Of a DNA stretch of 21,514 nt, positions 1 through 11,756 are shown in pieces. The DNA lies in the IMG/VR virus record IMGVR_UViG_3300042519_000984, positions 1 through 21,514 of that record; one strand, written 5' to 3'. The translations under genes and the position numbers were made by a program. This DNA comes from a virus. Every line of letters starts with the position of its first letter. Positions within the stretch are counted from its first letter, which is position 1. The notes beneath the pieces are model-generated. The model searched no databases, was not told the DNA's origin, and was given only the letters and a program-made list of their open reading frames with translations.

Positions 1-31
1 CCAACTGGCGACAGTACAAGGTGTAACCGCA

Positions 32-220
32 ATGATCGAAAAGATTGCGGACGAAGCAATCAAAAATAAAACCCAAGCACCAGCAGGAATGATGCAAGCA
101 ATGGAAGCAGTGTGCAGTCTGTTGGATGCCAAGGGTAACAAGCAAGTGTCAGCCGCAGTCGCCAAGGTTCGTGAGGCTTGCGGCATAACGAAAGGAAAGT
201 CAAATGAAACCATCGCCTAA
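32..220 (+). CDS. Small hypothetical helical protein, possibly 5'-truncated by window edge
   Basis: This is a 62-residue, Ala/Lys-rich and probably all-helical protein that I do not recognise. The ATG at 32 has a plausible SD (AAGGTG at 18-23). The same frame is open back to base 2 without a stop, however, so the true start may lie outside the window and this could be the C-terminal part of a longer protein. Its end overlaps the next gene by 17 bases, matching the tight packing of this plus-strand block. There are no cysteine clusters, membrane segments or catalytic motifs. The frame is likely real because of its spacing to the next gene; its function is unknown. Confidence 0.55.
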   Translation: MIEKIADEAIKNKTQAPAGMMQAMEAVCSLLDAKGNKQVSAAVAKVREACGITKGKSNETIA

Positions 221-407
221 GCGGAAGATCAGCATCGACGCTGACTACACACCACCCGAGAAGCACACACCCGAGGACGATCTTTCTCAGCGTCTGTTTG
301 CCCCGCCGCCTCTCAATCCACCCGATATTGATTGGACGAATCTCGCAATCGGTGTGACCTACGTCATGCTGGCCGTCGCTGTCTTTGTTTTATTCACCAC
401 GTACTGA
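204..407 (+). CDS. Small single-pass membrane protein, unknown function
   Basis: This 67-residue protein has a hydrophilic, proline-rich N-terminal part (about residues 1-45, with repeated PP pairs) and one hydrophobic helix at about residues 47-65, ending a few residues from the C-terminus. That layout suggests a tail-anchored inner-membrane protein with its N-terminal part in the cytoplasm. The start at 204 has a good SD (AAAGGAAAG just upstream). Phages encode many such peptides (holin-like, superinfection or host-takeover factors). Nothing here allows a choice, and no lysis gene sits beside it. The next gene's SD overlaps its stop codon. Confidence 0.65.
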   Translation: MKPSPKRKISIDADYTPPEKHTPEDDLSQRLFAPPPLNPPDIDWTNLAIGVTYVMLAVAVFVLFTTY

Positions 408-417
408 AAGGAAAATC

Positions 418-771
418 ATGCGCTCATTTCTCATCGACCCATTCAAGCACGAGATCACCGAGGTTGTTTACTCTGGTGACATTGAACAGATTTACCAACT
501 GACTGACTGCCAGACGTTCGATGTGGCTCGCATCAACAAGCATGGGGACGGTATCTTTGTGGATGACGAGGGTCTCTACGCAGAGGACGTTCGCTTTTTC
601 TTGCACAGCGACTACCCCAATCCGTTGGCTGGCAAGGGCATGGTGATCGGTTGCGACATGGAGACTGGCGAATCAGCCTCTGCTCACACCACGCTGGACG
701 AGCTGATCGAAAAGGTTCGATGGGTTTACCCCATCAGGGTTAACGGAGAGCTGACATGGATAGATGCTTAA
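418..771 (+). CDS. Conserved phage hypothetical, DUF3846-like
   Basis: This is a 117-residue acidic protein. It opens with a short strand and 'IDPF', continues with alternating strands and helices, and contains 'HGDGIFVDDEGL' followed by a 'GKGMVIG' turn. This arrangement recalls DUF3846-type small phage proteins, but the match is from memory and tentative. I chose the ATG at 418 over the in-frame ATG at 385 because AAAGGA lies five bases upstream, directly on the previous gene's stop. Starting at 385 would give a 23-base overlap with that gene without an SD. No catalytic residues are evident and the role is unknown. Confidence 0.7.
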   Translation: MRSFLIDPFKHEITEVVYSGDIEQIYQLTDCQTFDVARINKHGDGIFVDDEGLYAEDVRFFLHSDYPNPLAGKGMVIGCDMETGESASAHTTLDELIEKVRWVYPIRVNGELTWIDA

Positions 772-791
772 ACAACTTCAAAGGAACAGAC

Positions 792-1481
792 ATGAACTAC
801 ACAACACACAACAAAGAAGCCATCGTTACCGAGGGTTCATCTCTTCGCGGCGAGGTCACTGCCACCTACAAAGAACTGACCGATCTGTTCGGTGTCCCAA
901 CCAAGGGTGATGCGTACAAGGTAGACGCACACTGGTCTGTCAAATTCTCTGACGGCACAGTGGCGACTGTCTACAACTGGAAAGATGGCAAGTCCTATCT
1001 CGGCGAGCAAGGTGCGGATGTCAAGGACATCACCGAGTGGCACGTTGGTGGGTTCGGCCCGAGCGCAACCATATTGGTGCAACTCACACTGGAATTGATG
1101 CGGGAGGCAAAGCCCAAGGACAAATTCGAGGAAGCCTTCTCCTCTGCGTTCGACATGATGGACAGCATCAAGGCCAACAAGGGCGAGCACTTTGCACATC
1201 TGGTTCAAGTCGCCATGCTCACCATAAAGCGCAGAGAGATGATCGAGATGCTGATAGATATGCTGTCGGCATCGACAGATATGCCAGAAGCTATCAAGGA
1301 AATGCTACTGGAAGTAGACACAACCATGTCTGTCAAGACCATCTCTGCCGCCTGTCATGCCTCGGCTGTGAAGTTTGAAACGCAAGAAGGGGCAGACGAA
1401 ATGATGGAGTGGGCGCAACGACTTATCTCTGCCGAGATAGGTGGGGTCAATGAGTTAATCAAAGGGGCGAAGAAGAAATGA
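792..1481 (+). CDS. Conserved phage hypothetical with N-terminal beta domain and helical C-terminus
   Basis: This 229-residue protein has two parts. The first 90 or so residues form a strand-rich domain containing 'LFGVPTKGDAYKVDAHW', 'DGTVATVYNWKDGKSYLG' and 'WHVGG'. I have seen this signature in many phage hypothetical proteins, but it has no assigned function that I know. The remaining 130 residues are helical, Met-rich and acidic, with an AKKK tail. The ATG at 792 is preferred over 756 because AAAGGA sits seven bases before it and 756 would overlap the previous gene. The stop overlaps the start of the following helix-turn-helix gene (ATGA at 1478), so the two are probably translationally coupled. 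Confidence 0.75.
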   Translation: MNYTTHNKEAIVTEGSSLRGEVTATYKELTDLFGVPTKGDAYKVDAHWSVKFSDGTVATVYNWKDGKSYLGEQGADVKDITEWHVGGFGPSATILVQLTLELMREAKPKDKFEEAFSSAFDMMDSIKANKGEHFAHLVQVAMLTIKRREMIEMLIDMLSASTDMPEAIKEMLLEVDTTMSVKTISAACHASAVKFETQEGADEMMEWAQRLISAEIGGVNELIKGAKKK

Positions 1482-1690
1482 TTGACGTACAGATTGAGCG
1501 TGGTCATGTCTCCCTGACCGTAGCCGCCAGTCTGTTGGGTGTATCGCGTCAGCGTGTGCATCAGCTACTCAAAGCTGGGCGCATAGCTGGTGCTTTCCTC
1601 ATGGACTGTGGGGATGGGCGAGAGATATGGTGCGTCCCCCGCAACTCACTCCAAGCAAAGGAAAAGAAATGCTCGACGTTATCGGCGTGA
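1478..1690 (+). CDS. Small helix-turn-helix DNA-binding protein (excisionase/MerR-like)
   Basis: This 70-residue protein carries a helix-turn-helix at about residues 11-40, with the pattern 'LTVAASLLGVSRQRVHQLLK' followed by 'AGRI'. That is typical of HTH_17/excisionase-type and MerR-like DNA-binding domains. Such small proteins act as phage repressors, activators or recombination directionality factors. No integrase is visible nearby, so an excisionase role is not supported and a transcription factor is more likely. It starts inside the previous stop (ATGA), and its 3' end overlaps the next membrane-peptide gene by 22 bases. Confidence 0.7.
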   Translation: MIDVQIERGHVSLTVAASLLGVSRQRVHQLLKAGRIAGAFLMDCGDGREIWCVPRNSLQAKEKKCSTLSA

Positions 1691-1818
1691 TCTTTTTGCT
1701 ATTCGTCGGCGCATTCGGGGCTATTGCTATCGGTGCGCTGGCTATCTGGATAGCAGACACAACATACACAAGGAGGATGAAACGTGACAGACAGCCTAAA
1801 CAGAAAACGACAGATTAG
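1669..1818 (+). CDS. Tiny single-pass membrane peptide
   Basis: This is a 49-residue peptide. Residues 3-29 are almost entirely hydrophobic (Val, Ile, Leu, Phe, Ala, Gly), followed by a strongly basic tail (TRRMKRDRQPKQK), which predicts one transmembrane helix with a cytoplasmic C-terminus. The ATG at 1669 has an AAAGGAAA SD. An in-frame ATG at 1627 would add a segment without an SD and deepen the overlap with the upstream gene. It overlaps the next gene by 35 bases. It could be holin-like or a host-takeover peptide, but I cannot assign a role. Confidence 0.6.
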   Translation: MLDVIGVIFLLFVGAFGAIAIGALAIWIADTTYTRRMKRDRQPKQKTTD

Positions 1819-2443
1819 TGATTCGTTCCAGCGGGAAGCCGAACAGATCATGAAACGATGTCAGCGCGGAACAAGGAACTATGAAGAGGCGAACAATCTT
1901 CATGCCGCCTGTTACGCAATCATCGGGAAACTATTGGCACAGACAGAGCAAGACCATATTCCTGACGCTAGGAAAATGGTGACAGAGCAAGAGCCTGTGG
2001 CTAAAGTAGTTTGCAACAGCGCAGGACAGATTTCTATGCAAACTCTCGATGGAAATTCGTTTGATATTAGCAAATATGTTGGGTCAATGTTCTACACCAC
2101 CCCACCACAGCAAGAGCCTGTCGTTGGAATTACCGCAATCAGAACTTGGTTTAAAGATGGCAGGGTTGTTACGCAGACACTTTGCAATAGCTGGGTTGAC
2201 ACCACCCCACCACAGCGCACAGGGGTAGGGCTGACTGATGAAGAAGAGAATGAGTACAACTATCTTGGCCCAGATATGCACTGGGTTATTCAAGAAATTG
2301 CAGCCAAAGTCCGTGCTGACGAGCGTGAAGCCTGTGCAAAGGTGGTTGATGACATTGAATCGCGGTGCATTGCAGAAGACGTTGATGACCCGCCATTGAA
2401 GCACGTTGCATCCGCAATCAGAGCCAGAGGAGAACAAACATGA
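1784..2443 (+). CDS. Ea22-like phage protein with duplicated EPV...TTPPQ unit
   Basis: This 219-residue protein starts with GTG at 1784, placed seven bases after a near-perfect SD (AAGGAGG, 1770-1776). The N-terminal 60 residues are helical and polar. The middle carries two units that begin with EPV and end with TTPPQ (one ends FYTTPPQQ, the next VDTTPPQR), each containing a CNS tripeptide. The C-terminal part has 'LTDEEENEY', then 'ADEREACAKVVDDIE' and ends 'ASAIRARGE'. This layout is common in Ea22-like/TTPPQ accessory proteins of Proteobacteria phages; the molecular role is not established. The stop overlaps the next gene's ATG. Confidence 0.7.
   Translation: MTDSLNRKRQISDSFQREAEQIMKRCQRGTRNYEEANNLHAACYAIIGKLLAQTEQDHIPDARKMVTEQEPVAKVVCNSAGQISMQTLDGNSFDISKYVGSMFYTTPPQQEPVVGITAIRTWFKDGRVVTQTLCNSWVDTTPPQRTGVGLTDEEENEYNYLGPDMHWVIQEIAAKVRADEREACAKVVDDIESRCIAEDVDDPPLKHVASAIRARGEQT
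2094..2216 (+). repeat. 18-bp exact direct repeat inside the TTPPQ gene
   Basis: The 18-base string ACACCACCCCACCACAGC occurs at 2094-2111 and again at 2199-2216. The copies are exactly 105 bases (35 codons) apart, so they are in the same frame and both encode TTPPQ. The repeat marks the ends of two consecutive EPV...TTPPQ units and could permit unit gain or loss by slippage or recombination. Confidence 0.9.
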
Positions 2444-2619
2444 AGATCGACACATCGGAAGACCTTGAAGGCCACCGTCAGGTGCAAGAGTCACGCATCA
2501 TCAACCACCCTGAATACTACAAGCCAGTTTTGTTGACGAGGTATGGATGGGCAAAGCGTGGTGGCGAGACGCACTGGTACAAGCAAGAGATTCAAGAGAT
2601 TGGGGAGGAAAAGGAATGA
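2440..2619 (+). CDS. Small hypothetical protein of 59 residues
   Basis: This short gene fills the space between the TTPPQ gene and the next ORF. It begins with an ATG that overlaps the upstream stop (ATGA, 2440-2443) and ends with a TGA that overlaps the next start (ATGA, 2616-2619). It would encode 59 mostly polar residues, starting MKIDTSEDLEGHRQ, with an aromatic, basic middle (HPEYYKPV, TRYGWAKRGGETHWYKQ) and an acidic/lysine tail. The four-base overlaps at both ends are the main evidence for translation. I do not recognise the family. Confidence 0.65.
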   Translation: MKIDTSEDLEGHRQVQESRIINHPEYYKPVLLTRYGWAKRGGETHWYKQEIQEIGEEKE

Positions 2620-2858
2620 CAGAAGTCGAACAGATTAAAAGTAACGGTGAATATATAGACGTTAAGGTTCTGCCTGACGGTTCTATTGCCGCCCTCGGTG
2701 ACCTGCTCTACACACGAGCAATCCATCTTGGTTGCAATCAGCTCGGATGGGAAAGGCGATTCTGTTTCTCGGACAGGTCGCTGGCAGACAGGCGCTATGC
2801 CGAACTGGTGTCAGCGGACGACGAGCCATCAGGCTACATAGCAAGGAGGGGCAGATGA
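2616..2858 (+). CDS. Hypothetical protein of 80 residues
   Basis: This 80-residue protein appears to mix strands and helices (IDVKVLPDGSIAALGDLLYTR; then a helix ending YAELVSAD). The ATG at 2616 is chosen because GGGGAGGAAAAGGA precedes it and it overlaps the previous stop; the upstream in-frame ATG at 2547 lies inside another gene and lacks an SD. The C-terminus (YIARRGR) is basic. The family is not recognised. It lies in the chain of coupled small genes and shares its last four bases with the next start. Confidence 0.6.
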   Translation: MTEVEQIKSNGEYIDVKVLPDGSIAALGDLLYTRAIHLGCNQLGWERRFCFSDRSLADRRYAELVSADDEPSGYIARRGR

Positions 2859-3124
2859 AAGAACTTACCTTCGAGGAATTCTGTCATCTGACCATGACAT
2901 ACACGACTGGCATCAGCTTCGAGAACTACGCCCAGCGTCTGTACAGGAACGAGGCGCATGGTATTCAGAAAGAAACCTTCACACCACGCAACGCACGGAC
3001 AATGGAATGGGGTCTGGGTCAGGTCTTCTACTTTGTGGACGGAGACCCTAGACAGTTTGAAACTGTTGACCAATGTTATGTGGCCTACATGGAAAAGGTT
3101 TGCGGAGTTAGGAGTATCGAATGA
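2855..3124 (+). CDS. Hypothetical protein of 89 residues
   Basis: This 89-residue protein is rich in aromatic residues (YTTGISFENYAQRLYRNEAHG, then VFYFVDGDPRQFETVDQCY). It starts at 2855 with an SD (AAGGAGGGGC) overlapping the preceding gene's end. A longer reading frame from 2732 would lie inside that gene in another frame and has no SD. It is probably a small globular accessory protein; no motif suggests an activity. The stop overlaps the start of the DUF1289 gene (ATGA at 3121). Confidence 0.6.
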   Translation: MKELTFEEFCHLTMTYTTGISFENYAQRLYRNEAHGIQKETFTPRNARTMEWGLGQVFYFVDGDPRQFETVDQCYVAYMEKVCGVRSIE

Positions 3125-3315
3125 CAGATAGCCCTTGCATAGCGGTATGCACAACCCTGTATGACGAGGTGTGCAAGGGGTGTGGTCGGACGTACATCGA
3201 GGTCGCCCAGTGGAATGGGATGACCGACGAGCAGAAGCAAGTAATATGGAGGCGCATAGATGCAGAGGCAACTGCATGGCGGTACAACATCTACAAGGAT
3301 AGGGTCAGCAAATGA
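3121..3315 (+). CDS. DUF1289 family small cysteine protein
   Basis: This 64-residue protein matches the DUF1289 pattern: SPCIAVC, a short spacer, then VCKGCGRT followed by 'EVAQWNGMTDEQKQVIWRRI'. Four cysteines (Cys6, Cys10, Cys18, Cys21) are placed to bind zinc or an iron-sulfur cluster. DUF1289 proteins are common in Proteobacteria as short orphan proteins and as domains near redox enzymes; the biochemical role is not settled. A phage copy inside an accessory string is more likely a host-modulating factor than a metabolic enzyme. It is coupled by four-base overlaps at both ends. Confidence 0.85.
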   Translation: MTDSPCIAVCTTLYDEVCKGCGRTYIEVAQWNGMTDEQKQVIWRRIDAEATAWRYNIYKDRVSK

Positions 3316-3557
3316 TCGAACAGATCAGGACATTCTTTGGAAGAACTCGCGGAGATCATGCCAGTCGAGAGACTGTCGTGGTTGAATCGAAAGCATGGCG
3401 GTGTTCGTTTTGCGGACTCATCATGCTTAATCACAAGCAAGTCATGCCACACGGACTGACTTGCTCACCAGACTCACAAAAGGAAATGAACAATGGAACA
3501 GATCAACATCAGAAAGAACAGCATCCAGCACCGAATCCTCGCCTGTCTCGCCACTAA
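3312..3557 (+). CDS. Small putative zinc-binding protein
   Basis: This 81-residue protein has a Cys-Cys/His-His arrangement (Cys31-x2-Cys34, His41, His47, then Cys51) in 'WRCSFCGLIMLNHKQVMPHG', consistent with a small zinc finger or knuckle. The N-terminal 30 residues are basic and helical. After residue 55 the sequence is low in complexity and polar (NNGTDQHQKEQHP), and that part overlaps the next gene by 65 bases, so the tail is probably unstructured. The start overlaps the DUF1289 stop (ATGA). Nucleic-acid binding is a reasonable guess only. Confidence 0.55.
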   Translation: MIEQIRTFFGRTRGDHASRETVVVESKAWRCSFCGLIMLNHKQVMPHGLTCSPDSQKEMNNGTDQHQKEQHPAPNPRLSRH

Positions 3558-3915
3558 CGGGACGCTGGCGGCATCGCAAATCAAGGGGCTCATCGCACTG
3601 ACCGACAGCTTGGTCAAGGTGGAGGACGTACTGCACAACCAACTGCTTCATGCTGGCTTGGTCATGCGCCAAGAGATGACATGGGCATTGACGAATGCGG
3701 GATTGGATGTAAAGATCATGCTCGGTGGACTGGATGACATCAAGCCACTACGCCGAGGCAAAGCCCTTGCCGCACAGAACGATCTGTTCGCTCGGGGCAA
3801 CTACGATGGGGCTGAACTCAAGCCCAACTGCATGAGGCGTGGTGCGTATGACGCTTTCAATATGCCATCACTCAACTTCACAGGACGCACATACAGAAAG
3901 GACGCACTCGTATGA
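3493..3915 (+). CDS. Hypothetical protein with winged-helix-like N-terminal half
   Basis: This is a 140-residue protein. Residues 8-70 read like a winged helix: helix 'IQHRILACLATNG', 'LAASQIKGLIALT', a recognition-type helix ending 'VLHNQLLHAGLVMRQ', and 'TWALTNAGLDV' as the wing. This arrangement resembles MarR/ArsR-like small regulators, but no named family is assigned. The second half is basic and less regular (MRRGAYDAFNMPSL, TGRTYRKDALV). The ATG at 3493 follows an AAAGGAAA SD at the usual spacing and lies within the previous gene. The stop overlaps the next ATG. Confidence 0.65.
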   Translation: MEQINIRKNSIQHRILACLATNGTLAASQIKGLIALTDSLVKVEDVLHNQLLHAGLVMRQEMTWALTNAGLDVKIMLGGLDDIKPLRRGKALAAQNDLFARGNYDGAELKPNCMRRGAYDAFNMPSLNFTGRTYRKDALV

Positions 3916-4151
3916 CAAGCAAGGAAGAATCAATGCAACTACGCATCGACAAACTCTGCGAAGAGTTTCGGGCATCCCGCGACATGGCTATGGTCGTGAT
4001 GAGCAGGGATGAATACCAGTCACTCATTCGGACAGTCGTCACTCGATCTGTCCAAGCTGGCTGGGAGGAGGGGATGGAGGATGCAAAGTATTGCAAGCCC
4101 GTCTCAGTCGCCCAGCCTAAAGTCTCCGTCAACAAACATTCGGATATGTAA
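3912..4151 (+). CDS. Hypothetical protein at end of plus-strand accessory block
   Basis: This 79-residue protein is helical in its first 60 residues (LRIDKLCEEFRASRDMA; MSRDEYQSLIRTVVTRS) and has a polar, proline-containing tail. It starts within the preceding stop (ATGA at 3912). The last 48 bases overlap, tail to tail, the 3' end of the minus-strand antiterminator-like gene. No family is recognised. The amphipathic helices suggest a small dimeric or partner-binding protein, but nothing firm can be said. Confidence 0.6.
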   Translation: MTSKEESMQLRIDKLCEEFRASRDMAMVVMSRDEYQSLIRTVVTRSVQAGWEEGMEDAKYCKPVSVAQPKVSVNKHSDM

Positions 4152-4598
4152 TCTCTCAATGGCTCGCAACTGCAACGGCATCCACGCACGAAGGACTGCG
4201 TTACGCCAGTTGCAGACTTGCCTGTAACTCACGCCCCTCTCCTCTGCAATCTTCCTGATGCTTGGTCGCTTAGTCGCCCAGTGCATTAGGATGATCTGCA
4301 ACTCACGGTTGCTTGGCACTGTGCCGCTTACATTCGGCATCAGATATTCAGCAAGGCTACGGACTGCATCCGTTCTCGCCTTCCCTCTGCCATACATAGA
4401 CAGCACCGAATCCCTTTCCATCGGAAGCAATCTGCCAATCATCGAATGAATCATTGCAGCCTGAGCATGAAGGTCAGTCGGCGACAGATCGTCAAGGCTA
4501 GTGCCTCGCGTGCCGGTCAAGTCTGTGCGGCTGTACTCATCGCGCTCGCTGATGTTGAACGAGAACTTAATCGCCTGTTCGACTGAGTAGAATTTAAT
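4104..4598 (-). CDS. Sigma-region-4/Q-antiterminator-like helix-turn-helix protein, apparent ATT start
   Basis: The protein is 164 residues from ATT at 4598, or 138 residues from TTG at 4520. The longer form is preferred: AGGGAGG (4604-4610) lies five bases before the ATT, and the extra N-terminal residues (FYSVEQAIKFSFNISERDEY) read as normal coding sequence. No ATG, GTG or TTG occurs in frame upstream of 4520 before a stop. The middle has 'LHAQAAMIHSMIGRLLPMERD', and residues about 105-150 carry a helix-turn-helix ('SIRKIAEERGVSYRQVCNWR'). The layout recalls lambdoid Q-type antiterminators and sigma-70 region 4, so a late-gene regulator is plausible. It is the last gene of the replication operon. 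Function is inferred only. Confidence 0.65.
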   Translation of the reverse strand: MKFYSVEQAIKFSFNISERDEYSRTDLTGTRGTSLDDLSPTDLHAQAAMIHSMIGRLLPMERDSVLSMYGRGKARTDAVRSLAEYLMPNVSGTVPSNRELQIILMHWATKRPSIRKIAEERGVSYRQVCNWRNAVLRAWMPLQLRAIERLHIRMFVDGDFRLGD

Positions 4599-4603
4599 AT
4601 CGT

Positions 4604-4610
4604 CCTCCCT
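4604..4610 (-). promoter_or_regulatory. Strong Shine-Dalgarno site supporting an ATT start
   Basis: On the minus strand AGGGAGG lies five bases before the ATT at 4598, and just after the TGA stop of the RusA gene at 4611-4613. No ATG/GTG/TTG in any frame sits at suitable spacing, so this site points to ATT as the initiation codon. Confidence 0.6.
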
Positions 4611-5009
4611 TCATATCCAATCCCCATCCTGTTCGATCATCACATCGAGGCCGCCCTCTGGCACTGGCTGCCCCAGCTTTATTGACAGAAACGTGATCTG
4701 TCTGTCGTTGTCATACGCAATACCCTGCAACGCATCAAGCACAACCTTCTGTGCGTTATCTATGTCGATGCGCCTCACGCCCAATCCCCAAAGCCTGTCC
4801 TTCTTCTCTCGCTTCTCTGCATCCTGCGGCCTCGGCGGGTGCAACGTCATCATCACCCTGATCGGCGTGGTAATCAGCGCGACCTTGTTCACCCTCGCTA
4901 TCCAGCCCACCTCATCCTTGTACGCATTGGCCGCACTGCTCCTGACCATGCGCCCTCGGAAGTTTCTCCAGTAGACATTGGTGCTGATGGGGTAAGGCAG
5001 ACATATCAT
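4611..5009 (-). CDS. rusA: RusA-family Holliday junction resolvase
   Basis: This 132-residue protein fits RusA endonucleases, homodimers that cut four-way DNA junctions symmetrically during phage recombination and replication. It opens with 'PYPISTNVYWR', typical of the family N-terminus. The acidic metal-binding cluster is visible as 'IDIDNAQKVVLDALQGIAYDND', placing Asp82, Asp84 and Asp100/Asp102 where RusA has its catalytic aspartates. The ATG at 5009 overlaps the upstream stop (ATGA, 5006-5009); an upstream in-frame start would run through the neighbouring gene. It belongs with the annealing protein, exonuclease and SSB encoded in the divergent operon. Confidence 0.93.
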   Translation of the reverse strand: MICLPYPISTNVYWRNFRGRMVRSSAANAYKDEVGWIARVNKVALITTPIRVMMTLHPPRPQDAEKREKKDRLWGLGVRRIDIDNAQKVVLDALQGIAYDNDRQITFLSIKLGQPVPEGGLDVMIEQDGDWI

Positions 5010-5536
5010 TCTGTCTCGCCCTTCTTGGGTCTTCCGGCGGATCGCGCTCGGCGGATGGCAACTGTCTCGATGATCTTGGACAGAATCTCTGGCCGGGGAA
5101 GCGAAATCACCGCCCCGGACATGCCCATCACCGCCTTCTCCCACCTCTGAACCTTGGTTGGAATCCTCATGTCCAGTAGAGGAACGCCTATCAATGCGTC
5201 CTTCCCCTCTGGTCTGATGAACACCGTCTCTGGCTGCTGGCATTTGCCAAGTGCAATCTGTTCGTCCCTGAACTTAGGCGTGCAGTCTCGGCAGTGTTCG
5301 ACTGTCACTCCGTCCCTGCGGTCTGGCGCACTGCAAAAGATATAGGCCACCACGTACTGCGCCCACTTCTGCTGGGTCTCGTAACAGGTCGGCTTCTCGC
5401 GTGAGGCAGCGCCGCCTGCTGTGTATCTGTCGAACGCCTGCGATACAAACTCAGGCTCATGGGTTGGGCAGTAGCCAAAGCTGCCTGCTGAACTGGCACA
5501 TCCACCGGACAGACAGCGGCCTCGTTTATTTTCCAA
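5006..5536 (-). CDS. Cysteine-rich hypothetical protein, probable TTG start
   Basis: The protein is about 176 residues and not recognised. The N-terminus has a cysteine cluster (Cys8, Cys13, Cys23, His26 in 'GRCLSGGCASS...GYCPTH') that could bind zinc. Further cysteines follow (Cys51, Cys68, and 'HCRDC' at 81-85). The C-terminal 50 residues are helical and basic, ending GRPKKGETE. The frame is open upstream to ATGs near 5644, but those codons lie in the HNH gene. The first reasonable start after it is TTG at 5536, with GGGAG about ten bases upstream, giving an 11-base overlap with the HNH stop. The position between HNH and RusA genes suggests a DNA-metabolism accessory role. Confidence 0.65.
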   Translation of the reverse strand: MENKRGRCLSGGCASSAGSFGYCPTHEPEFVSQAFDRYTAGGAASREKPTCYETQQKWAQYVVAYIFCSAPDRRDGVTVEHCRDCTPKFRDEQIALGKCQQPETVFIRPEGKDALIGVPLLDMRIPTKVQRWEKAVMGMSGAVISLPRPEILSKIIETVAIRRARSAGRPKKGETE

Positions 5537-5864
5537 GGACGAGCACTCCCTCTCTGATTGCCTGCAAGAAGGTGAGACAGACGTGCTCGAACTGCGATCC
5601 ATTCTGGTCTTCCCATGCGTTGACATCATGGTGAAGGACATCATGGCAAGTGCGACAGATGGGTATCACCCACCAGTCAGGAACCTTCGTCCCCATGCCC
5701 TTGAACCCTGCGCCGTGCGGGTGATGCGGGTCGTCAGCGGGTGCGTTGCAACTCACGCATCGAAGTTGCTTTACCCAGCGGGTGTATGTCTGACACTCCA
5801 TGCGCTCGACGTACCCATTGGACAGAGCCTGCTTAAACGTAAGGTAGGGCGGGATGACTTTCAT
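5526..5864 (-). CDS. HNH-type nuclease of the Ref/DUF968-like group
   Basis: This 112-residue protein shows the pattern Cys36-x2-Cys39, then 'ADDPHHPHGAGFKGMGTKVP', then 'VIPICRTCHDVLHHD' (Cys70, Cys73, His74, His78/His79), then 'AWEDQNGSQFEH'. This is the zinc-stabilised HNH arrangement found in phage DUF968 proteins and in the RecA-dependent nuclease Ref of phage P1. The DPHH core histidines and the CHxxLHH segment would carry the metal-dependent nuclease site. It probably nicks or cuts DNA during recombination. The start at 5864 overlaps the upstream stop (ATGA). RusA lies one gene downstream, consistent with a shared role in processing recombination intermediates. Confidence 0.85.
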   Translation of the reverse strand: MKVIPPYLTFKQALSNGYVERMECQTYTRWVKQLRCVSCNAPADDPHHPHGAGFKGMGTKVPDWWVIPICRTCHDVLHHDVNAWEDQNGSQFEHVCLTFLQAIREGVLVLGK

Positions 5865-6085
5865 GCTGTCGTGTCTGGTGAGTGCTCCTCGAACTCGATC
5901 AGCATATCAAGATAGTGGCGAGCCTTCTTCAAGTCCTCGACCCCACCCTTCGATCTCCAGCGGGAGATGTACTTGATGGCATTCCCTTCCATAAACCCGA
6001 TGCCGTTCTTCATGATGTACTCGATGGGCTGGATGGGCATCTCTTTGTAATGGTTGCCGCCGACCTGAATGTTTAAGCTGCTCAT
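5861..6085 (-). CDS. DUF3310 family protein
   Basis: This 74-residue protein matches DUF3310: 'QVGGNHYKEMPIQPIEYI', then 'GFMEGNAIKYISRW', 'KGGVEDLKKARHYL' and a final acidic helix. The family is very common in tailed phages of many hosts and usually lies among DNA-metabolism genes. Its function is not known, although it is sometimes found fused to or beside nucleotide-processing enzymes. The whole domain is present and of normal length. It is coupled by ATGA overlaps to both neighbours (6082-6085 upstream, 5861-5864 downstream). Confidence 0.93.
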   Translation of the reverse strand: MSSLNIQVGGNHYKEMPIQPIEYIMKNGIGFMEGNAIKYISRWRSKGGVEDLKKARHYLDMLIEFEEHSPDTTA

Positions 6086-6321
6086 TTTTCGAGATCCCTG
6101 TTGATTCTGTTTCGTTTGTATGCTTGAACCTGATTGTCTGCCTTGTCGCTCAGGCCAAGGATTGTGCCGTGGTACGGGTTCTTTCTTTGCAGCTTAGCCA
6201 CAGCTACGCTGGTACTCAGACTGATCTTGGCATCATGCTTCATTTTCTTGAATGGGTCGCCGCCATTCTTGGCGTGTTCCTCATCGGTGTACTGCTTCCA
6301 GTTAAATGCGTTGACGGTCAT
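6082..6321 (-). CDS. Small basic hypothetical protein
   Basis: This 79-residue protein has a basic C-terminal half ('GLSDKADNQVQAYKRNRINRDLEK') and a short aromatic N-terminus (MTVNAFNWKQYTDEEH). I chose the ATG at 6321 because it overlaps the stop of the upstream gene (ATGA, 6318-6321). A longer frame from 6408 would lie inside that gene. An SD-like AAAGGG lies somewhat far upstream, so translation may depend on coupling. The family is not recognised. Confidence 0.6.
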   Translation of the reverse strand: MTVNAFNWKQYTDEEHAKNGGDPFKKMKHDAKISLSTSVAVAKLQRKNPYHGTILGLSDKADNQVQAYKRNRINRDLEK

Positions 6322-6656
6322 GCCCCGTATCCCTTTCGTTCTGTTCTCTCGTTTGCCTGAGTCGTCTGCCACACCGCAACTCCCAGCTTCAGTATCTCCA
6401 GCTCCCACCTCAGCTTCTCAACAATCTCTGTTGATGTCCGAAGATCTGTCAGCAGTTGCAGGTACTTTGGGTCTGCGCGAGCCTCTCTGTCCTGTGCTGC
6501 TGCCGTCTTGAATCCCAGGGCGTCATACTGTTTCATCAGGATTGCAAGCAAAGACTCCCTATATTTTTCCAGATAGTTCTTGGTGGCCTGCTCTGTTGCA
6601 TACAGACCAGCCTTGTCTCGCATCTCAGCGAGTCTTGCCTCTGCCTTTTCGTACAT
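6318..6656 (-). CDS. Helical coiled-coil hypothetical protein
   Basis: This 112-residue protein is predicted nearly all helical, with heptad-like patterns from 'YEKAEARLAEMRDKAGL' to 'TSTEIVEKLRWELEILKLGVAVW'. It contains 'NYLEKYRESLLAILMKQYDALGFKTAAAQDREARA', a segment I have seen in phage helical hypothetical proteins near recombination or replication genes. No catalytic residues are apparent, so it may be a structural or adaptor protein. The start at 6656 has AAGGAC about ten bases upstream and overlaps the previous gene by 32 bases. Confidence 0.65.
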   Translation of the reverse strand: MYEKAEARLAEMRDKAGLYATEQATKNYLEKYRESLLAILMKQYDALGFKTAAAQDREARADPKYLQLLTDLRTSTEIVEKLRWELEILKLGVAVWQTTQANERTERKGYGA

Positions 6657-6891
6657 TTGGTAGTGTCCTTGGTTGTGGGAATGTGTCTTTGGTTATTTCA
6701 AATGCGCTGTTGACGACAGATTTCTTTCCGATCTCCTTCCCGGTAGCAAGATCCTTCGCCCAGATTAACTTCGACCCGGGGTACTTTGCATTAACCTCGT
6801 CCATCAGTTTCGCAAGATCGGGAAACTCTTCTCTGTTTTTGCGGCGCTTCTCCTCATTGATCTGTTCTCTGATCTGTGCTTCATCGTTCAT
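6625..6891 (-). CDS. Small charged hypothetical protein
   Basis: This 88-residue protein begins with a highly charged helix (MNDEAQIREQINEEKRRKNREE), continues with 'LAKLMDEVNAKYPGSKLIWAKDLATGKEIG' and ends in a basic, proline-containing tail (RTLPNVRKGRGKTR) suited to nucleic-acid contact. The ATG at 6891 has AGGAGG nine bases upstream and was chosen over a TTG six bases earlier. It overlaps the upstream gene by 11 bases. No family is recognised. Confidence 0.65.
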   Translation of the reverse strand: MNDEAQIREQINEEKRRKNREEFPDLAKLMDEVNAKYPGSKLIWAKDLATGKEIGKKSVVNSAFEITKDTFPQPRTLPNVRKGRGKTR

Positions 6892-7426
6892 TTCCAAAAG
6901 CCTCCTGCATTTTTTGTAAAGCCTCGCTGATCGCCAAGTCCTTGGTGGTCTTCAGTCCCTCGATCTCTTTGCACAAACGCTCAAGCTCTGCGCCACTTCT
7001 TGGAACTCCGAAGTCCATGACGTGACGCGAAGCCTGCTTCAGTGCGGCAAGGCGAATGTTGTCAATGCGAATGGCTGTTGCCTTATCCACATCCTTGGTC
7101 ATCTCAAGTTGGAACGCCAAGTCTTTGACTGCCGCCTTGTAATCTCGAAGCTCGGACTCCAGCGTTGCAATCCGTGAGCGGTCATTGATGTGAAACTCTT
7201 TCACCATCTTATTGATTGCATCCACAATTATTTCTTCACCGTGTAGCATGAAATCAAATTGAGTAATTGTGATTCTGTTTCTTTTTGTTTCGGAGAAACA
7301 GATAACCTCAAGAGTGCTGTTATGTAAGTGCTCTTCAAATCGAACCTGAACGCTGTACAGGGATGCCCTTTGGATGGCATCGGCCACGGCAGGGTGCGCT
7401 TCAAATCCCGGTGCTGACTTGCTCAT
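6881..7426 (-). CDS. Helical hypothetical protein with central coiled coil
   Basis: This is a 181-residue protein. Residues 1-75 mix strands and helices ('SLYSVQVRFEEHLHNSTLEVICFSE', 'ITITQFDFMLHGEEI'). From about residue 80 to the end it is a charged helix with coiled-coil character ('IATLESELRDYKAAVKDLAFQLE', 'ELERLCKEIEGLK'). I do not recognise it. Its start overlaps the helicase stop (ATGA, 7423-7426), so it is co-translated with the helicase and could be a partner of it, but that is only suggested by position. Confidence 0.65.
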   Translation of the reverse strand: MSKSAPGFEAHPAVADAIQRASLYSVQVRFEEHLHNSTLEVICFSETKRNRITITQFDFMLHGEEIIVDAINKMVKEFHINDRSRIATLESELRDYKAAVKDLAFQLEMTKDVDKATAIRIDNIRLAALKQASRHVMDFGVPRSGAELERLCKEIEGLKTTKDLAISEALQKMQEAFGNER

Positions 7427-8367
7427 ATTGCCACTCCTTCGTCATCCATATATCTGGAATAGTTGTAGATCATCGGCTGGTGTGGTCGCTCAGAATACGA
7501 GCAAGCACCAGACAGATAGAACAAGCCGACCTTACCTTCCCAGTCGCCATGTCTGTTCTTGTCGCAGACCATGATGGCATCCGGCATCTCCTCGTCAACG
7601 TCCTTGCCTGACTGCTTCGCCTGTTCTTTGCGTTTATTGCGCCACACGGTAAAGCACTGGTCAACCTGATCGACGATGGCCCCGCTACCTTTCGCATCCA
7701 TCTTGCCCGGTATCTGCATCTCATCACCCAGCTTGCGGCTGTGGTGAATCAGGTGGACATGGACATTGAAGTCTTGAGCAAAGGCGCAGACAGAATCAAC
7801 GAAAGCCTTCTGCCCGTTGTAGTCATCCTCGCCCTTCACCACCTTCATCAGCGAGTCAACAACGAAGTGTTGGATACCCAGCTTCTTCGCGGCGTAGCGC
7901 ATGATCGACAGCATGTGGTTCGGGTCTGTCTGTCCCATCTTGTCGTACAGCCACAACTTACCAGTGGCGTGACTGAGAACGCCATCAACGAATCTGGGTG
8001 CTGGTGTTGGTGATGCTGCCGCCTGTTTGCACATGCGAGCAAGGGTCGCCCGTGGCTTCATCTCGAAGCTGGCAATACAAACCTTCTGGTTCTGATGCAA
8101 GAAGCCAAGCATGACGTGGCTGGTCAACAGGCTTTTGCCGTGACCATTGATGCCCATCCACAGGCTGACTTCGCCCGGACGAAAACGGATGTGATCAAAC
8201 GTCTTTGGCCAAGGCAGTGTCGCGCCAGTAACCATCTCCTCGCCAGACAGTAGGGCAATCGTTTCATCGCGGTAGGCTTTGGGCGCAACGATCTTGTCCT
8301 TGTCATGAGGCTCACTGGCGTACTCAGCAAAGTCAAAGGTGTCTTCCGAAAAAATCATTTCATTCAT
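7423..8367 (-). CDS. DnaB-type replicative helicase, RecA-fold domain
   Basis: This 314-residue protein has the RecA-like ATPase core of the DnaB/T7 gp4 helicase group, which unwinds DNA ahead of the phage replisome as a ring. The Walker A loop is 'GINGHGKS' (residues 72-79). A Walker B-like strand is 'QHFVVDSLMKV' (about 165-175), followed by the conserved histidine strand 'HVHLIHHSRK' (about 205-214). The late segment 'CDKNRHGDWEG' matches the KNR-G motif near the C-terminus of DnaB domains. About 60 short residues precede the ATPase core. The DnaB N-terminal primase-binding domain is absent and there is no primase domain, so priming must come from another protein. It is coupled to genes on both sides by ATGA overlaps. 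Confidence 0.9.
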   Translation of the reverse strand: MNEMIFSEDTFDFAEYASEPHDKDKIVAPKAYRDETIALLSGEEMVTGATLPWPKTFDHIRFRPGEVSLWMGINGHGKSLLTSHVMLGFLHQNQKVCIASFEMKPRATLARMCKQAAASPTPAPRFVDGVLSHATGKLWLYDKMGQTDPNHMLSIMRYAAKKLGIQHFVVDSLMKVVKGEDDYNGQKAFVDSVCAFAQDFNVHVHLIHHSRKLGDEMQIPGKMDAKGSGAIVDQVDQCFTVWRNKRKEQAKQSGKDVDEEMPDAIMVCDKNRHGDWEGKVGLFYLSGACSYSERPHQPMIYNYSRYMDDEGVAI

Positions 8368-8837
8368 ATAGGACTTTCAATATCTAAAAAGAACGGCACT
8401 TCGTATGGGAACAGATTTCTGTAGATGTTTGTTTCGGGGTGGGTCGGCAGCAAAAGGTTCGGGTCGCCGATGATCTCTGGCGTGTGCGTCATGTGTGCGC
8501 CAGCCTTGAGACTGGTGTTCCACAAAAACAAAGATCCGATAAAGCCCATGCTCGACTCTCGATCACCAACAGATTTGTTCTTTGCGATCTCCAAAGCGAA
8601 GGCTTTCACCTTGTCCTTGTTGCACGTCGAGTCATAGACCAAGCAGATTTGCAGATCACGAACCCATCTCCACTCTTGGTTCTTCGGGTGGATTTCTTGG
8701 TTAGGATATATCTGCCAGCGTCCAGTGGTCAGCTCACCGATCATGGAAACCATGATCATTTCTGTCGGCTTGAATCCTGAGATACGCATATCCCACAACC
8801 TCTGTGCATCGCCTCCCGGAAATATCAATTCATTCAT
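8364..8837 (-). CDS. Conserved phage hypothetical preceding the helicase gene
   Basis: This 157-residue protein contains 'LWDMRISGFKPTEMIMVSMIGEL', 'WRWVRDLQICLVYD' and 'GDPNLLLPTHPE'. It reads as a mixed alpha/beta fold with an opening helix. I recall similar proteins in other phages beside replication genes, always unnamed. No nuclease, ATPase or DNA-binding motif is clear. The start overlaps the stop of the upstream helix-turn-helix gene (ATGA, 8834-8837), and its stop overlaps the helicase start, suggesting a helicase loader or accessory role, which is an inference from position only. Confidence 0.65.
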   Translation of the reverse strand: MNELIFPGGDAQRLWDMRISGFKPTEMIMVSMIGELTTGRWQIYPNQEIHPKNQEWRWVRDLQICLVYDSTCNKDKVKAFALEIAKNKSVGDRESSMGFIGSLFLWNTSLKAGAHMTHTPEIIGDPNLLLPTHPETNIYRNLFPYEVPFFLDIESPI

Positions 8838-9187
8838 GCGGCCATCCTTTGAATCATTTCGAGGCTGTGCTTCTTTGACCGGCTTCTTGCCGCACGCTCA
8901 GCCATGCTCATCCTCTGTCTCTTTGCATCCTTGCCCTCACCGATCTTGTAAACCTTGATCGAGTCTCTGCCATAGATGTCCTTCTCCCACCCGCAGATGT
9001 GAACCGCGCCAACAGAGTGAAGCTCCCTTGTGTACTGGAGAACGGTGACGTAGTGAAGCCCAGTGTGCTCGGCCAACTCCTTGCATGTGTAGATTCCTTC
9101 GAGCATGGCCTTGATGAGATGCGCCTGAGAAATGGCATTGATCTTGATGATTTTCTTGCCCTTGTTTCGTGGTGGTACTGGACTCAT
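8834..9187 (-). CDS. Winged helix-turn-helix protein
   Basis: This 117-residue protein carries a DNA-binding helix-turn-helix at about residues 20-60: 'AHLIKAMLEGIYTCKELAEHTGLHYVTVLQYTRELHSVG', followed by a wing-like 'AVHICGWEKDIYGRDSIKVYKIG'. The C-terminus is strongly basic (KRQRMSMAERAARSRSKKH), which adds DNA affinity. The start at 9187 has a strong SD (GGAGGGAAAGA) and overlaps the upstream stop (ATGA, 9184-9187); a longer start at 9211 would lie inside that gene. It may bind the replication origin or act as a transcription regulator; the sequence does not decide. Confidence 0.75.
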   Translation of the reverse strand: MSPVPPRNKGKKIIKINAISQAHLIKAMLEGIYTCKELAEHTGLHYVTVLQYTRELHSVGAVHICGWEKDIYGRDSIKVYKIGEGKDAKRQRMSMAERAARSRSKKHSLEMIQRMAA

Positions 9188-9402
9188 TCTTTCCCTCCAG
9201 TCATTGCCCATTGCCTTGCTTTCTCTGCCATGAACAAACCCTCTGCTCGGGTCATCTTGGACGAACGCACAAACAGCTCCCCTTCAAAGTCGTACCCAAT
9301 AACCATCACATCGGTCAGCTCCATTTGCAGTGCGGACTGCAATGCTTGTTCAGCCGTGTAGTTCGTGGACGCTGGTAGAGCGGTTACCTTTTCGTTGTTC
9401 AT
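9184..9402 (-). CDS. Small conserved phage hypothetical
   Basis: This 72-residue protein has a strand-turn-strand 'TDVMVIGYDFEGELFVRSS' followed by a helix 'MTRAEGLFMAEKARQWAM'. Such compact proteins recur in tailed phages and prophages beside replication genes and have no known function. The ATG at 9402 is preferred over 9408: it overlaps the upstream stop (ATGA, 9399-9402) and AGGGGG lies at proper spacing before it. A much longer frame from 9510 would run inside the DUF1376 gene. Confidence 0.65.
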   Translation of the reverse strand: MNNEKVTALPASTNYTAEQALQSALQMELTDVMVIGYDFEGELFVRSSKMTRAEGLFMAEKARQWAMTGGKE

Positions 9403-10070
9403 ATCCATCCCCCTGTCACAGATGCCGCTTCCTCGGTCTCGTCTTCCCATCGGCGTTGGTTCAGCCATGTGCTGGGAAATGGGATGAACTGTCCGTTGTC
9501 CTTCGTCCAATCCGTGGACAACTTCGATCTCTCGACTGCCGCCACCATCTTGGTCAAAGTCTGTTCGTCAGGATTGATCTTCGTGAATGCCTTCAATGCC
9601 TCAGCCTTCGCTGTCTTGCGGGGATAGGCTGACCAGAAGGATTCAAACCCAACCACAGGGGTAGATGGTTTACTGGTTCTTTGGTTCTTTGGTTTACTGG
9701 TTGCGTCCTGAAACGGTTCTGATTTCAGTTCTGCAATCAGTTCTGATCTCAGAGATTTCTTTTCTACCTTGGCCTTGTTCGCACGTCTGGCTGAGTCTGC
9801 CTTGCCGTGGTACTTGGTGATCTCGAAGTCGCAACGCTGGTTTGTCCAGCCGGAATCCTCAAGGGTGAAGAACTCATTAAGCACGGCGGTAACCTCATCC
9901 ACGTTGTCAGGCATGGCGATGAGTCGAGCCGCCCGAGCAGGGTCTGCTGGCAGTGGCTGTTCTTCGGTGTAGTAGGTGTCGATCAGACGGCGGTAAGCCA
10001 AGTCTTCGAGAAGGGTGAGATGCCTCGTCTTGGTGAGGTAGTCACGAATGTGGAACTGATAACTGAACAT
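9399..10070 (-). CDS. DUF1376 family phage replication-type protein
   Basis: This 223-residue protein begins with a DUF1376 domain at about residues 1-90: 'YQFHIRDYLTKTRHLTLLEDLAYRRLIDTYY', 'EEQPLPAD' and 'FFTLEDSGWTNQRCDFEIT'. A basic linker (KAKVEKKSLRSE) and low-complexity stretch follow. The C-terminal region 'FESFWSAYPRKTAKAEALKAF' with 'PSTWLNQRRWEDE' matches the tail common in phage O-like/YdaU-type replication proteins. These proteins are thought to recognise the origin and recruit helicase, although DUF1376 itself has no proven activity. It is first in the replication operon, with SD AAAGGA upstream of 10070, as expected for an initiator gene. Confidence 0.88.
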   Translation of the reverse strand: MFSYQFHIRDYLTKTRHLTLLEDLAYRRLIDTYYTEEQPLPADPARAARLIAMPDNVDEVTAVLNEFFTLEDSGWTNQRCDFEITKYHGKADSARRANKAKVEKKSLRSELIAELKSEPFQDATSKPKNQRTSKPSTPVVGFESFWSAYPRKTAKAEALKAFTKINPDEQTLTKMVAAVERSKLSTDWTKDNGQFIPFPSTWLNQRRWEDETEEAASVTGGWI

Positions 10071-10098
10071 GCAATCCTTTCAGACCTTTCTTTTGAAA

Positions 10099-10188
10099 CC
10101 CCGAAGGGGCAGGGAACACTGGCCGAAAGGAAGAAACTACCAGTGCTTTCAGCAATCGGAGCGACCAATTACCTACCCTGCGGGGTGG
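10099..10188. repeat. Three consecutive short inverted repeats
   Basis: CCCC-GAA-GGGG lies at 10099-10109. CACTGG (10117-10122) pairs with CCAGTG (10140-10145) across 17 bases. CTACCC (10173-10178) pairs with GGGTGG (10183-10188), allowing one G-T pair, around a TGCG loop. They lie in the leader of the minus-strand operon and could be operator sites or RNA hairpins controlling it. The stems are short (4-6 bp), so each alone could be chance. Confidence 0.5.
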
Positions 10189-10266
10189 AGTATCAGGGAT
10201 GCAGAAAATAATTGCAAGTGATACCTTATTGGTTTACTTGGTCTTTGCTGGAGTTTCTTGGAATTG

Positions 10267-10294
10267 ACTATATAATCAAACAAAAAACTGGCAA
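10267..10294 (-). promoter_or_regulatory. Candidate sigma-70-type promoter for the replication operon
   Basis: Read on the minus strand, TTGCCA (10294-10289) is followed after 16 bases by TATAGT (10272-10267). Both hexamers are close to the sigma-70 consensus TTGACA/TATAAT. Transcription would begin near 10260, leaving a leader of about 190 bases, with the three inverted repeats, before the DUF1376 start. Confidence 0.45.
10271..10276 (+). promoter_or_regulatory. Candidate -10 hexamer for the recombination operon
   Basis: A perfect TATAAT occurs on the plus strand at 10271-10276, about 75 bases before the annealing-protein start. No good -35 hexamer lies 16-18 bases upstream, so it may need an activator or may be chance in AT-rich DNA. 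It overlaps the candidate minus-strand -10 site, so the two directions could exclude each other. Confidence 0.35.
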
Positions 10295-10350
10295 AAGCCA
10301 CAGAACATTGCTATCATAATCTTGTCACTGCATCAACGAAAGGAAACGCT

Positions 10351-11136
10351 ATGTCCGACAATTCAGAACAACAAGCCCAAGACTTCATGCAAGTCTGGAA
10401 CTCAGCCTGCACCACAGACCCCCGCCATGTAAAGCAGTTCAGTCGAGGCGGCGGCTTCTCCGGCACGGCCATCAATCACACCTACCAAATCCGCAAGGCC
10501 ACTGAAATGTGGGGGCCTATGGGTGGTCTTTGGGGTGTCAAGATTATCGAGCAAGGTCTGTTACCCGGCACTCCAATTATCCTTGAAGACATGGAGCAGG
10601 CATGGGAATCGAATGGTGACGAGCGCATCTTGGTCAGGCAGACCGTCAAGAAGCACATGGTTGCTCAGGAGTCCGTCCACTTTGTCCGCATCCAACTGCA
10701 CTTCCCCCGCTTCGCAAAGAACGACAAGGGCGACGATGTTCACATTGGCACTGGAACCGTGGAGCATTTCGGCCAGACCACCTTTGTTGGCAAGAACAAG
10801 AACGGCTACTTCACGGACGAGGAAGCTCCAAAGAAATCCCTGACAGATGCCATCGGCAAGGCGCTGTCCATGCTGGGCTTCTCGGCTGACGTGTACCTCG
10901 GCCTGTTCGATGACAACAAGTATGTCAATGACCGCAAGGCAGAAGTTGCCAAGGCTGGTGCGGCCAAGCCAGAGATCAAGGCCAAGATGACCGCCGAGCA
11001 GGTCGAGGCATTGAAGATCCGCCTGTCTGGATGCCTGTCTGTGGACACCCTGCGCGGACAGTTCGCCCTTCTGTCGGATGAAGAGAAGGCTGTGACCGAG
11101 GAGTTCTGCAAGGCTTTGGCCAAGGGTCTGGAATGA
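10351..11136 (+). CDS. Rad52/ERF-like single-strand DNA annealing protein
   Basis: This 261-residue protein lies directly before a YqaJ-type exonuclease and SSB, the standard phage recombination trio. The core has 'HTYQIRKATEMWGPMGGLWGVK' early and, at about residues 161-193, 'KKSLTDAIGKALSMLGFSADVYLG'. The latter matches the conserved DA-x-KALSxLGF helix of ERF/Sak/Rad52-superfamily annealing proteins. The C-terminal 60 residues are helical and charged. By analogy the protein coats resected single strands and anneals homologous DNA for repair or end joining. The start at 10351 has an AAAGGAAA SD. The stop overlaps the exonuclease start (ATGA, 11133-11136). The exact annealing-protein family is not certain. 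Confidence 0.8.
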   Translation: MSDNSEQQAQDFMQVWNSACTTDPRHVKQFSRGGGFSGTAINHTYQIRKATEMWGPMGGLWGVKIIEQGLLPGTPIILEDMEQAWESNGDERILVRQTVKKHMVAQESVHFVRIQLHFPRFAKNDKGDDVHIGTGTVEHFGQTTFVGKNKNGYFTDEEAPKKSLTDAIGKALSMLGFSADVYLGLFDDNKYVNDRKAEVAKAGAAKPEIKAKMTAEQVEALKIRLSGCLSVDTLRGQFALLSDEEKAVTEEFCKALAKGLE

Positions 11137-11753: not shown

Positions 11754-11756
11754 ATC

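Follow-up and report, generated by a model that had tools for sequence, protein, structure and literature searches.

Gene content of the block

The virus record IMGVR_UViG_3300042519_000984 from IMG/VR (positions 1 to 21,514, referred to in full as the window) begins with a row of 14 consecutive open reading frames (ORFs), g1 to g14, all on the plus strand between positions 2 and 4151. Analysis of this block and its relatives revealed a conserved frame of genes around a slot with changing cargo, the first gene of which, g7, belongs to a class of proteins that appear to be joined from unrelated segments at short DNA sequences, here called joints. The initial annotation had described a dense run of about 14 small ORFs linked by ATGA overlaps and carrying membrane peptides, metal-binding motifs and helix-turn-helix (HTH) domains. 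This description holds. ATGA overlaps of 4 nt are present at 7 of the 13 junctions (g4/g5, g7/g8, g8/g9, g9/g10, g10/g11, g11/g12, and g13/g14), and proteins of all three kinds occur, as set out below. In addition, the ratio of nonsynonymous to synonymous substitution rates (dN/dS) is below 1 for 12 of the 14 ORFs, all with diverged relatives (0.04 to 0.65, mostly 0.1 to 0.3; g12 mostly saturated), a set that leaves out g7 and g8, known only as near-identical copies. These 12 ORFs are under purifying selection, and the block is therefore not made of chance frames.

At the upstream side, g1 (2 to 220) has been truncated by the contig end, since its frame runs unbroken to base 2 and the gene is longer in relatives (homologs, 35 to 96%; dN/dS, 0.14 to 0.47). 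The product of g2 (204 to 407; homologs, 46 to 100%; dN/dS, ≤0.18) has one predicted C-terminal membrane segment, and that of g3 (418 to 771) resembles DUF3846 at 25.7 bits (cut-off, 27.5) and phrog_25534. For g4 (792 to 1481), which fuses an N-terminal "THN" domain to a helical C-terminal domain, ATG 792 is a likelier start than ATG 756. An excisionase-like HTH_17 protein is encoded by g5 (1478 to 1690; 23.9 bits, below the 27-bit cut-off; the other match is likewise below cut-off), and a predicted small membrane protein by g6 (1669 to 1818).

The cargo slot (1784 to 3315) lies between g6 and g12. It holds g7 (1784 to 2443), which has a GTG start, g8 (2440 to 2619), to which no family was assigned, g9 (2616 to 2858; phrog_24748, E value of 3.5e-6), g10 (2855 to 3124), and g11 (3121 to 3315), a Cys-rich DUF1289 protein (64.2 bits; dN/dS, 0.04 to 0.06). 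Downstream follow g12 (3312 to 3557), whose Cys/His-rich product contains C-x2-C...H..C, g13 (3493 to 3915), encoding a MarR-like winged HTH protein by fold with a C-terminal CxRxGAYDAxxLPS motif, and g14 (3912 to 4151).

A conserved frame encloses a slot of changing content

Relatives were collected from IMG/VR with a helicase query (best 80 loci) and g4 queries (9 loci plus the best 80 of 353), the contigs being partly shared. The comparison set comprises the 29 contigs that span g4 to the convergent gene m1, i.e., the window and 28 others, which are not independent because several are near-identical to each other. g5 is present in 29/29; in L099 and L100, where the hidden Markov model match was short and misplaced, its presence is based on tblastn in the same contigs (L013 and L008). 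g13 was found in 26/29 (missing from L112, L114, and L117). All 26 contigs that extend as far as g3 carry that gene, while g1, g2, g6, g12, and g14 are markers of nearer relatives. Near relatives thus retain g1 to g6 and g12 to g14 as a common frame, in which two DNA-binding proteins, g5 and g13, mark the upstream and downstream edges of the slot.

The cargo of the window is rarer: g7 and g8 each occur in 3/29 contigs, g9 and g11 each in 5/29, and g10 in 9/29, where the gene order differs. The distance from g5 to g13 ranges from 18 nt in L107 (and in L091, which stops short of m1) through 264 to 279 nt in ten contigs, where g6 and g12 alone lie between, and 1803 to 1806 nt in the window, L093, and L094, up to 4160 nt in L111. 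In the relatives, the slot holds about 66 cargo families, most of which have a single member. They derive from 70 clusters (46 singletons), of which F2 and F18 run antisense to m1 and F8 and F15 are unlabelled g12 and g5. Recognizable cargo includes a Rap1a-type immunity protein (L022:7415-7744; 59.6 bits; cluster in 3 contigs), as well as a sigma-70 region 4 protein and a phage zinc-finger protein (L024:6017-6388 and L020:15409-15696). Hence, the stretch from g5/g6 to g12/g13, which g7 to g11 fill here, is a slot of changing content. The high turnover that the initial annotation expected of related phages is found for these five genes, about one-third of the block. The remaining two-thirds, g1 to g6 and g12 to g14, are instead the kind of conserved set that the annotation itself had named as evidence against its proposal.

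Over positions 1 to 4200, the identity to L093 and L094 alternates between levels of 73 to 85% (end of g4, g6) and of 97 to 100% (g5, g7 to g11). Such jumps, each within a few hundred bases, point to recent mosaic exchange within the block.

A class of joint-bearing proteins that includes g7

g7 encodes a member of an unnamed class of phage proteins with the architecture N part - EPVA - variable segment - YTTPPQRTWVGLTDE - variable segment. The constant elements, or joints, are E1 (QPEQEPVA), E2/E3 (YTTPPQRTWVGLTDE), and a less sharp tail, EAKLKEKNT. In g7, E1 (EQEPVA) is an exact copy at 1985 to 2001, an E2 element fused to an E1 element (YTTPPQ-QEPVV) lies at 2094 to 2124 with two mismatches in each, and E2/E3 (TTPPQR..VGLTDE) spans 2199 to 2242. 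At the DNA level, ACACCACCCCACCACAGCGC occurs twice, with two mismatches at 2094 to 2113 and exactly across the 20-nt E2 core at 2199 to 2218, against 0.01 chance matches expected. GAGCAAGAGCCTGTNGC also occurs twice, exactly at 1985 to 2001 and with two mismatches at 2108 to 2124; 0.34 chance matches with up to 3 mismatches are expected in the whole window. The copies of the two sequences encode TTPPQ(R) and EQEPV, respectively. g7 ends (2320 to 2440) with a second recurrent tail, EREACAKV...AIRARG, and 69 distinct EREACA-like tails are present in the fetched loci. This tail may be another exchangeable segment.

Scanning IMG/VR with the degenerate pattern PPQRxWVGLT returned at least 120 stretches, and a second pattern, QEPVAWM, added further loci, again as a lower bound. 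Among the matches listed for PPQRxWVGLT, 82/82 in 80 loci (L176 to L255) are in frame, in ORFs with a median of 127 amino acids, and 52 have EPV upstream. In total, at least 128 joint proteins from at least 122 loci were obtained, 123 of which were usable, five being dropped for too short a segment. The loci belong mostly to other phages, as 49/118 match any of 38 window queries; among the 231 loci of both joint scans, DUF3310 was found in 41, YqaJ in 17, and the helicase in 8.

Three class members tested against Pfam matched no family above its cut-off. Among isolates, the joint and one class protein matched only "Caudoviricetes sp." records from Manatee Spring (two by DNA, four by protein), and another class protein had no isolate phage match. 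The exact joint pattern was found in 0/299 host genomes of the family of the metagenome-assembled genome (MAG) that gave L091. Five joint strings searched in the literature matched no paper, and the class is not described in the titles and abstract openings among the matches listed.

Segments reassort at the joints

The 123 proteins form 7503 pairs, and at 60% identity the middle segment is shared in 24 of these, the C-terminal segment in 20, and both in 3 (window/L093, L232/L235, and L259/L294), among the matches listed. As a control, 0/3000 residue-shuffled pairs reached 60% in either segment. Most multi-member middle clusters (16/19) occur with two or more C-terminal segments, and 8/10 multi-member C-terminal clusters with two or more middles. 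A looser pair count (16, 83, and 2) was discarded, as a common tail had inflated the C-terminal similarity.

Identity profiles locate the edges of sharing. The joint is alike in all pairs; even unrelated pairs show 96, 93, 77, 86, and 86% identity over its first 30 nt and drop to about 30% past it. C-sharing pairs are 22 to 33% identical up to 13 nt before the joint, 45 to 50% in the last 12 nt, and 72 to 95% beyond, while middle-sharing pairs are highly similar before the joint and at background, like unrelated pairs, from 42 nt past its first base. The switch in segment sharing therefore lies within the E2/E3 joint. At the opposite edge, middle sharing usually begins at EPVA of E1 (9 pairs profiled, taken from the 14 of 21 middle-sharing pairs in which both members have an E1 site). 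Short conserved DNA is hence found at the edges of the exchanged segments, at E2/E3 and, in most pairs, at E1, as in homology-joint mosaicism. Taken together, the comparisons indicate that the class of g7 is built of unrelated segments linked through short in-frame stretches of DNA, with middle and C-terminal segments occurring in many combinations.

All sequences are metagenomic assemblies and the joints are repeated, so such combinations might be assembly chimeras formed at short repeats. Flanks beyond the gene are nevertheless similar in few middle-sharing pairs (downstream, 2/21; upstream, 1/20) and in a minority of C-sharing pairs (downstream, 1/16; upstream, 6/17), and these dissimilar flanks argue against chimeras. 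Most middle-sharing pairs are bounded by joints on both sides with differing flanks and would need two misjoins per case. Moreover, joints of 20 to 48 nt are shorter than the usual assembly k-mers, and g7 was recovered again in L093 and L094, whose names refer to two different metagenomes. We consider an assembly artifact highly improbable.

Constant joints with variable segments also resemble, in outline, the products of a shufflon-like site-specific recombinase or of a diversity-generating retroelement. The segments are, however, unrelated sequences rather than point-mutated copies, and the multi-copy loci (four, the sole informative ones) carry all copies on one strand. Each of the 131 joint copies, counted at ≤3 mismatches, falls within an open PPQR frame of at least 45 codons, although the opposite-strand frame is longer in 25/131, so that this point is not decisive. 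Either mechanism seems quite unlikely.

Joint codons are conserved beyond the protein sequence

Seven joint codons are nearly fixed: CCA in 117/123, CCA in 114/123, CAG in 111/119, CGC in 111/120, ACA in 72/72, GGG in 110/123, and CTG in 104/123. Elsewhere in the class proteins, the same residues use these codons at frequencies of 0.55, 0.55, 0.43, 0.30, 0.45, 0.23, and 0.16. The pattern does not come from the search, because the scan did not constrain the third base of the P, R, V, G, L, and T codons. Irrespective of GC content, the match to the consensus at third positions averages 8.4 to 9.2 of 10 in every class from 0.36 to 0.59. Near-invariant residues of control proteins encoded in these loci have top-codon shares of 0.41 to 0.93 in DUF3310 (41 loci), 0.25 to 0.94 in YqaJ (17 loci), and 0.25 to 0.79 in m7 (16 loci). 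The joint codons are thus more uniform than most control invariant residues, a few of which are equally fixed. A similar codon bias is seen at EPVA and in the N helix and the tail.

These data bear on a simpler explanation, in which the slot undergoes ordinary turnover of moron-like accessory genes by no special mechanism and the joints are just a conserved protein motif. Accessory slots are common in phage operons, and the cargo here is diverse, two-thirds of its clusters being singletons. This explanation does not, however, account for joint codons that are more uniform than most control residues independently of GC content, or for the reassortment of segments at the joints, and is judged unlikely.

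Frame genes g4 and g13

The N-terminal domain of g4, with its THN motif, is found as a free small protein, mostly of about 93 to 115 amino acids, in many other phage contigs. Both g4 domains occur as separate genes in L148 (6215-6559 and 7260-7649) and L150 (8896-9240 and 9941-10330), the helical C-domain gene lying about 0.7 kb upstream of the N-domain gene. Since the domains are fused in g4 yet separate in these contigs, g4 can be regarded as a Rosetta-stone fusion, which suggests that the N- and C-domain proteins work together. Its fold had no match in the PDB at an E value of 0.001 or better (Foldseek). VIA-align gave a best Z score of 7.6 with 6z1p_AR (root mean square deviation of 4.0 over 105 aligned residues), possibly just a common arrangement, and the 11 matches to a viral library at an E value of 0.001 or better are all uncharacterized or unnamed.

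The best Foldseek E value for the MarR-like fold of g13 is about 0.001. Of 16 invariant columns in 15 sequences, 12 are located from residue 101 on, in the CxRxGAYDAxxLPS tail, a region modeled with low confidence. The conserved tail possibly binds a partner. As g5 and g13 bracket the slot, they are candidate regulators of the cargo.

Surrounding operons, a second cargo site, and recombination genes

A replication-type operon on the minus strand (10070 to 4104), encoding RusA, DUF968, helicase, primosomal, and DUF3310 proteins, converges on the block. Its last gene, m1, matches HTH_23 at 19.7 bits, below the cut-off. The 3' ends of g14 and m1 overlap by 48 nt (4104 to 4151), where their transcripts may be antisense to each other; in the near group, the distance from g13 to m1 varies little (173 to 198 nt). 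The minus-strand operon contains a second cargo site with m12 and m13 (8834 to 9510), where m12 looks HTH-like by eye and had no family match. m12 occupies the replication-type operon in the window, L002, L003, and L007, but in L083/L004 and L082/L006 homologs of it are found between g6 and g12, in the slot. Similarly, the window, L093, L094, L108, and L111 have joint-bearing genes in the slot, whereas L007, L008, L009, L010, L012, and L018 have them next to m11, within the replication-type operon. The same kinds of cargo therefore use two sites.

Three recombination-type genes follow on the plus strand. The first (10351 to 11136) matches PHROGs "exonuclease" families at 166.7 bits, the second (11133 to 11753) belongs to the YqaJ/lambda-exonuclease family (54.6 and 68.9 bits), and the third (11757 to 12167) encodes a single-stranded DNA-binding protein (SSB; 49.4 bits). 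The name ERF recombinase, considered for the first gene, was withdrawn, given the two PHROGs "exonuclease" families and the lack of a Pfam or NCBIfam match. At a guess, the genes from 10351 to 12167 could supply the machinery for segment exchange. Farther downstream, a single minus-strand ORF of 2586 amino acids extends over 13267 to 21027.

In relatives, the region upstream of the block contains small genes, a DUF7192 protein gene (99.3 bits), and an AAA_5 ATPase gene (68.4 bits). Beyond the latter, a largely noncoding stretch (L166:15547-16842 and counterparts) precedes the terminase genes, which are transcribed away from it; L166 matches Terminase_6N at 29.3 bits and SU10_portal at 34.1 bits, and the gene that we take to encode the terminase small subunit matched no family. 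Two long records (52.6 and 53.4 kb) start and end in the terminase-AAA stretch, and 9/24 contigs end at most 1.7 kb upstream of the AAA gene, with 15/24 continuing through. From its position, the stretch is possibly a genome terminus or an early promoter region. The sigma-70 consensus is not enriched over shuffles, either in the window at 1 to 10500 (5 versus 7.6) or in the terminase-AAA interval of L166 (0 versus 1.5).

A tyrosine integrase (PF00589) is present in 2 of the 10 records of the window's group. No isolate phage was found by DNA search with window positions 1 to 8000. By protein, the helicase has 111 relatives in isolate phages, all below 60% identity, and g4, g13, and g7 gave one, two, and one weak records, respectively. 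A profile search of host contigs with the g4 alignment found two loci, in MAGs named Limnohabitans and Nitrospinota, which is weak evidence for a host.

Host takeover or counter-defence

The initial annotation interpreted the block as a candidate host-takeover or anti-defence island, in which small early proteins would each neutralize a host function or defence, with the HTH proteins of the frame as regulators. Several features are in line with this proposal: the ORFs are small, turnover in the slot is high, and the operon begins on the terminase side. Moreover, in acr-aca loci small variable ORFs lie beside a conserved HTH gene, and here g5 and g13 adjoin the slot, with the difference that HTH genes occur on both sides. 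L002, L009, and L004 carry an Nmad5-like gene in the upstream part of the operon, and L029 carries one within the slot; the Pfam matches are partial and score 49.0 bits in L002, 50.6 in L009, and 42.6 in L029.

On the other hand, no significant match to a counter-defence family was obtained in Pfam and PHROGs (14/14 proteins) or in NCBIfam and PADLOC (10/14 each), of which PADLOC lists defence genes rather than counter-defence genes. The weak matches were mad1 for g5 (E value of 0.0024), AbiEii for g14 (0.0056), LmuB for g4 (0.01), and a Ren-like exclusion protein for g13 (0.17). The recognizable slot cargo of relatives is mixed (Rap1a, zinc finger, and sigma-70 region 4 proteins), and the fast turnover expected of a counter-defence island is confined to g7 to g11. 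A takeover island comprising the entire block is not supported, the majority of it being conserved frame. What stands of the proposal is the turnover in the slot, and overall we regard it as doubtful. Nmad5 as a proven counter-defence gene was likewise rejected: in the accessible text of PMC11846954, nmad5 is described as a gene for DNA modification, phages escape Tmn when it is mutated, and the anti-Tmn gene is another one, ORF35.

Segment exchange at joints as the preferred explanation

As a whole, the data are best explained by a conserved frame with a cargo slot, in which the class of g7 exchanges segments at the joints; we assign this explanation a probability of roughly 60%. The block would form the downstream half of a tailed-phage operon that runs rightward and is probably early (the longest relatives are 53-kb records); in relatives, this operon starts with the AAA ATPase and DUF7192 genes adjoining the terminase genes. 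Co-infecting phages would recombine homologously at the joints of 20 to 48 nt, which would both swap segments and keep the joints identical. The products could plausibly serve as variable host-interaction or counter-defence factors. Tentatively, at somewhat less than even odds and judging from contigs that are mostly metagenomic, many phages share this combinatorial system, trading segments from a common pool at crossover joints in coding DNA. The resulting protein variants perhaps track host targets or defences.

Several observations weigh against segment exchange at the joints. For the window itself, g7 is known solely as near-identical whole copies (L093 and L094), never with a single shared segment, the tail of its C-terminal segment differs from that of most class members, and the doubling of E1 is weak by itself, two or more copies being found in 5/100 shuffles. 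Among the 14 middle-sharing pairs with E1, one (L207/L281) is identical upstream of it, and two others show 43% and 53% identity there; the upstream similarity in 6/17 C-sharing pairs extends over 240 nt in one case. Some joint codons are freer (GTA, 76/120; ACG, 79/123; GAG, 59/76), and since the N helix and tail are biased as well, part of the codon bias may reflect recent spread of whole genes. Homologs of the protein at 10351 to 11136 occur in 0/231 joint-scan loci and YqaJ in 17/231, the loci being short pieces, so that the tie between the joints and the recombination genes of the window is a guess. The sample is also metagenomic, and its counts are lower bounds.

Comparison with known systems

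The joints raise the testable question of whether phages maintain in-frame crossover sites for protein diversification, and which targets the variable segments bind. They also provide a simple DNA signature for a gene class with more than 100 members found, their codons being conserved across contigs of 36 to 59% GC. Boundary sequences of lambdoid phages are comparable in that short DNA stretches at the junctions of modules are conserved. Those sequences are located between genes, whereas the joints described here are coding and in frame.

Similarity at mosaic edges has been interpreted as a trace of homologous recombination in work on phage Rad52-like recombinases (De Paepe et al. 2014, PMC3945230, in the sections available). 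The mosaics discussed there are between genomes, whereas the edges here fall within one reading frame and the same element recurs in many phages. In the window, the candidate partner protein at 10351 to 11136 matched only PHROGs "exonuclease" families. At the protein level, the portions accessible of Smug et al. 2023 (PMC10684548) report that unrelated phage proteins share sequence parts and expect more sharing in proteins of unknown function and in less frequent accessory proteins; the word "linker" does not appear in the main text as available. The shared units in that study are domains or fragments of annotated functional classes, in contrast to the short segments of unnamed small proteins found here, and the joints of this class, unlike the mosaicism of Smug et al., are conserved at the DNA level. 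Phage mosaicism has been described mostly between genes or whole domains, whereas the exchange proposed for the class of g7 would take place inside small accessory proteins.

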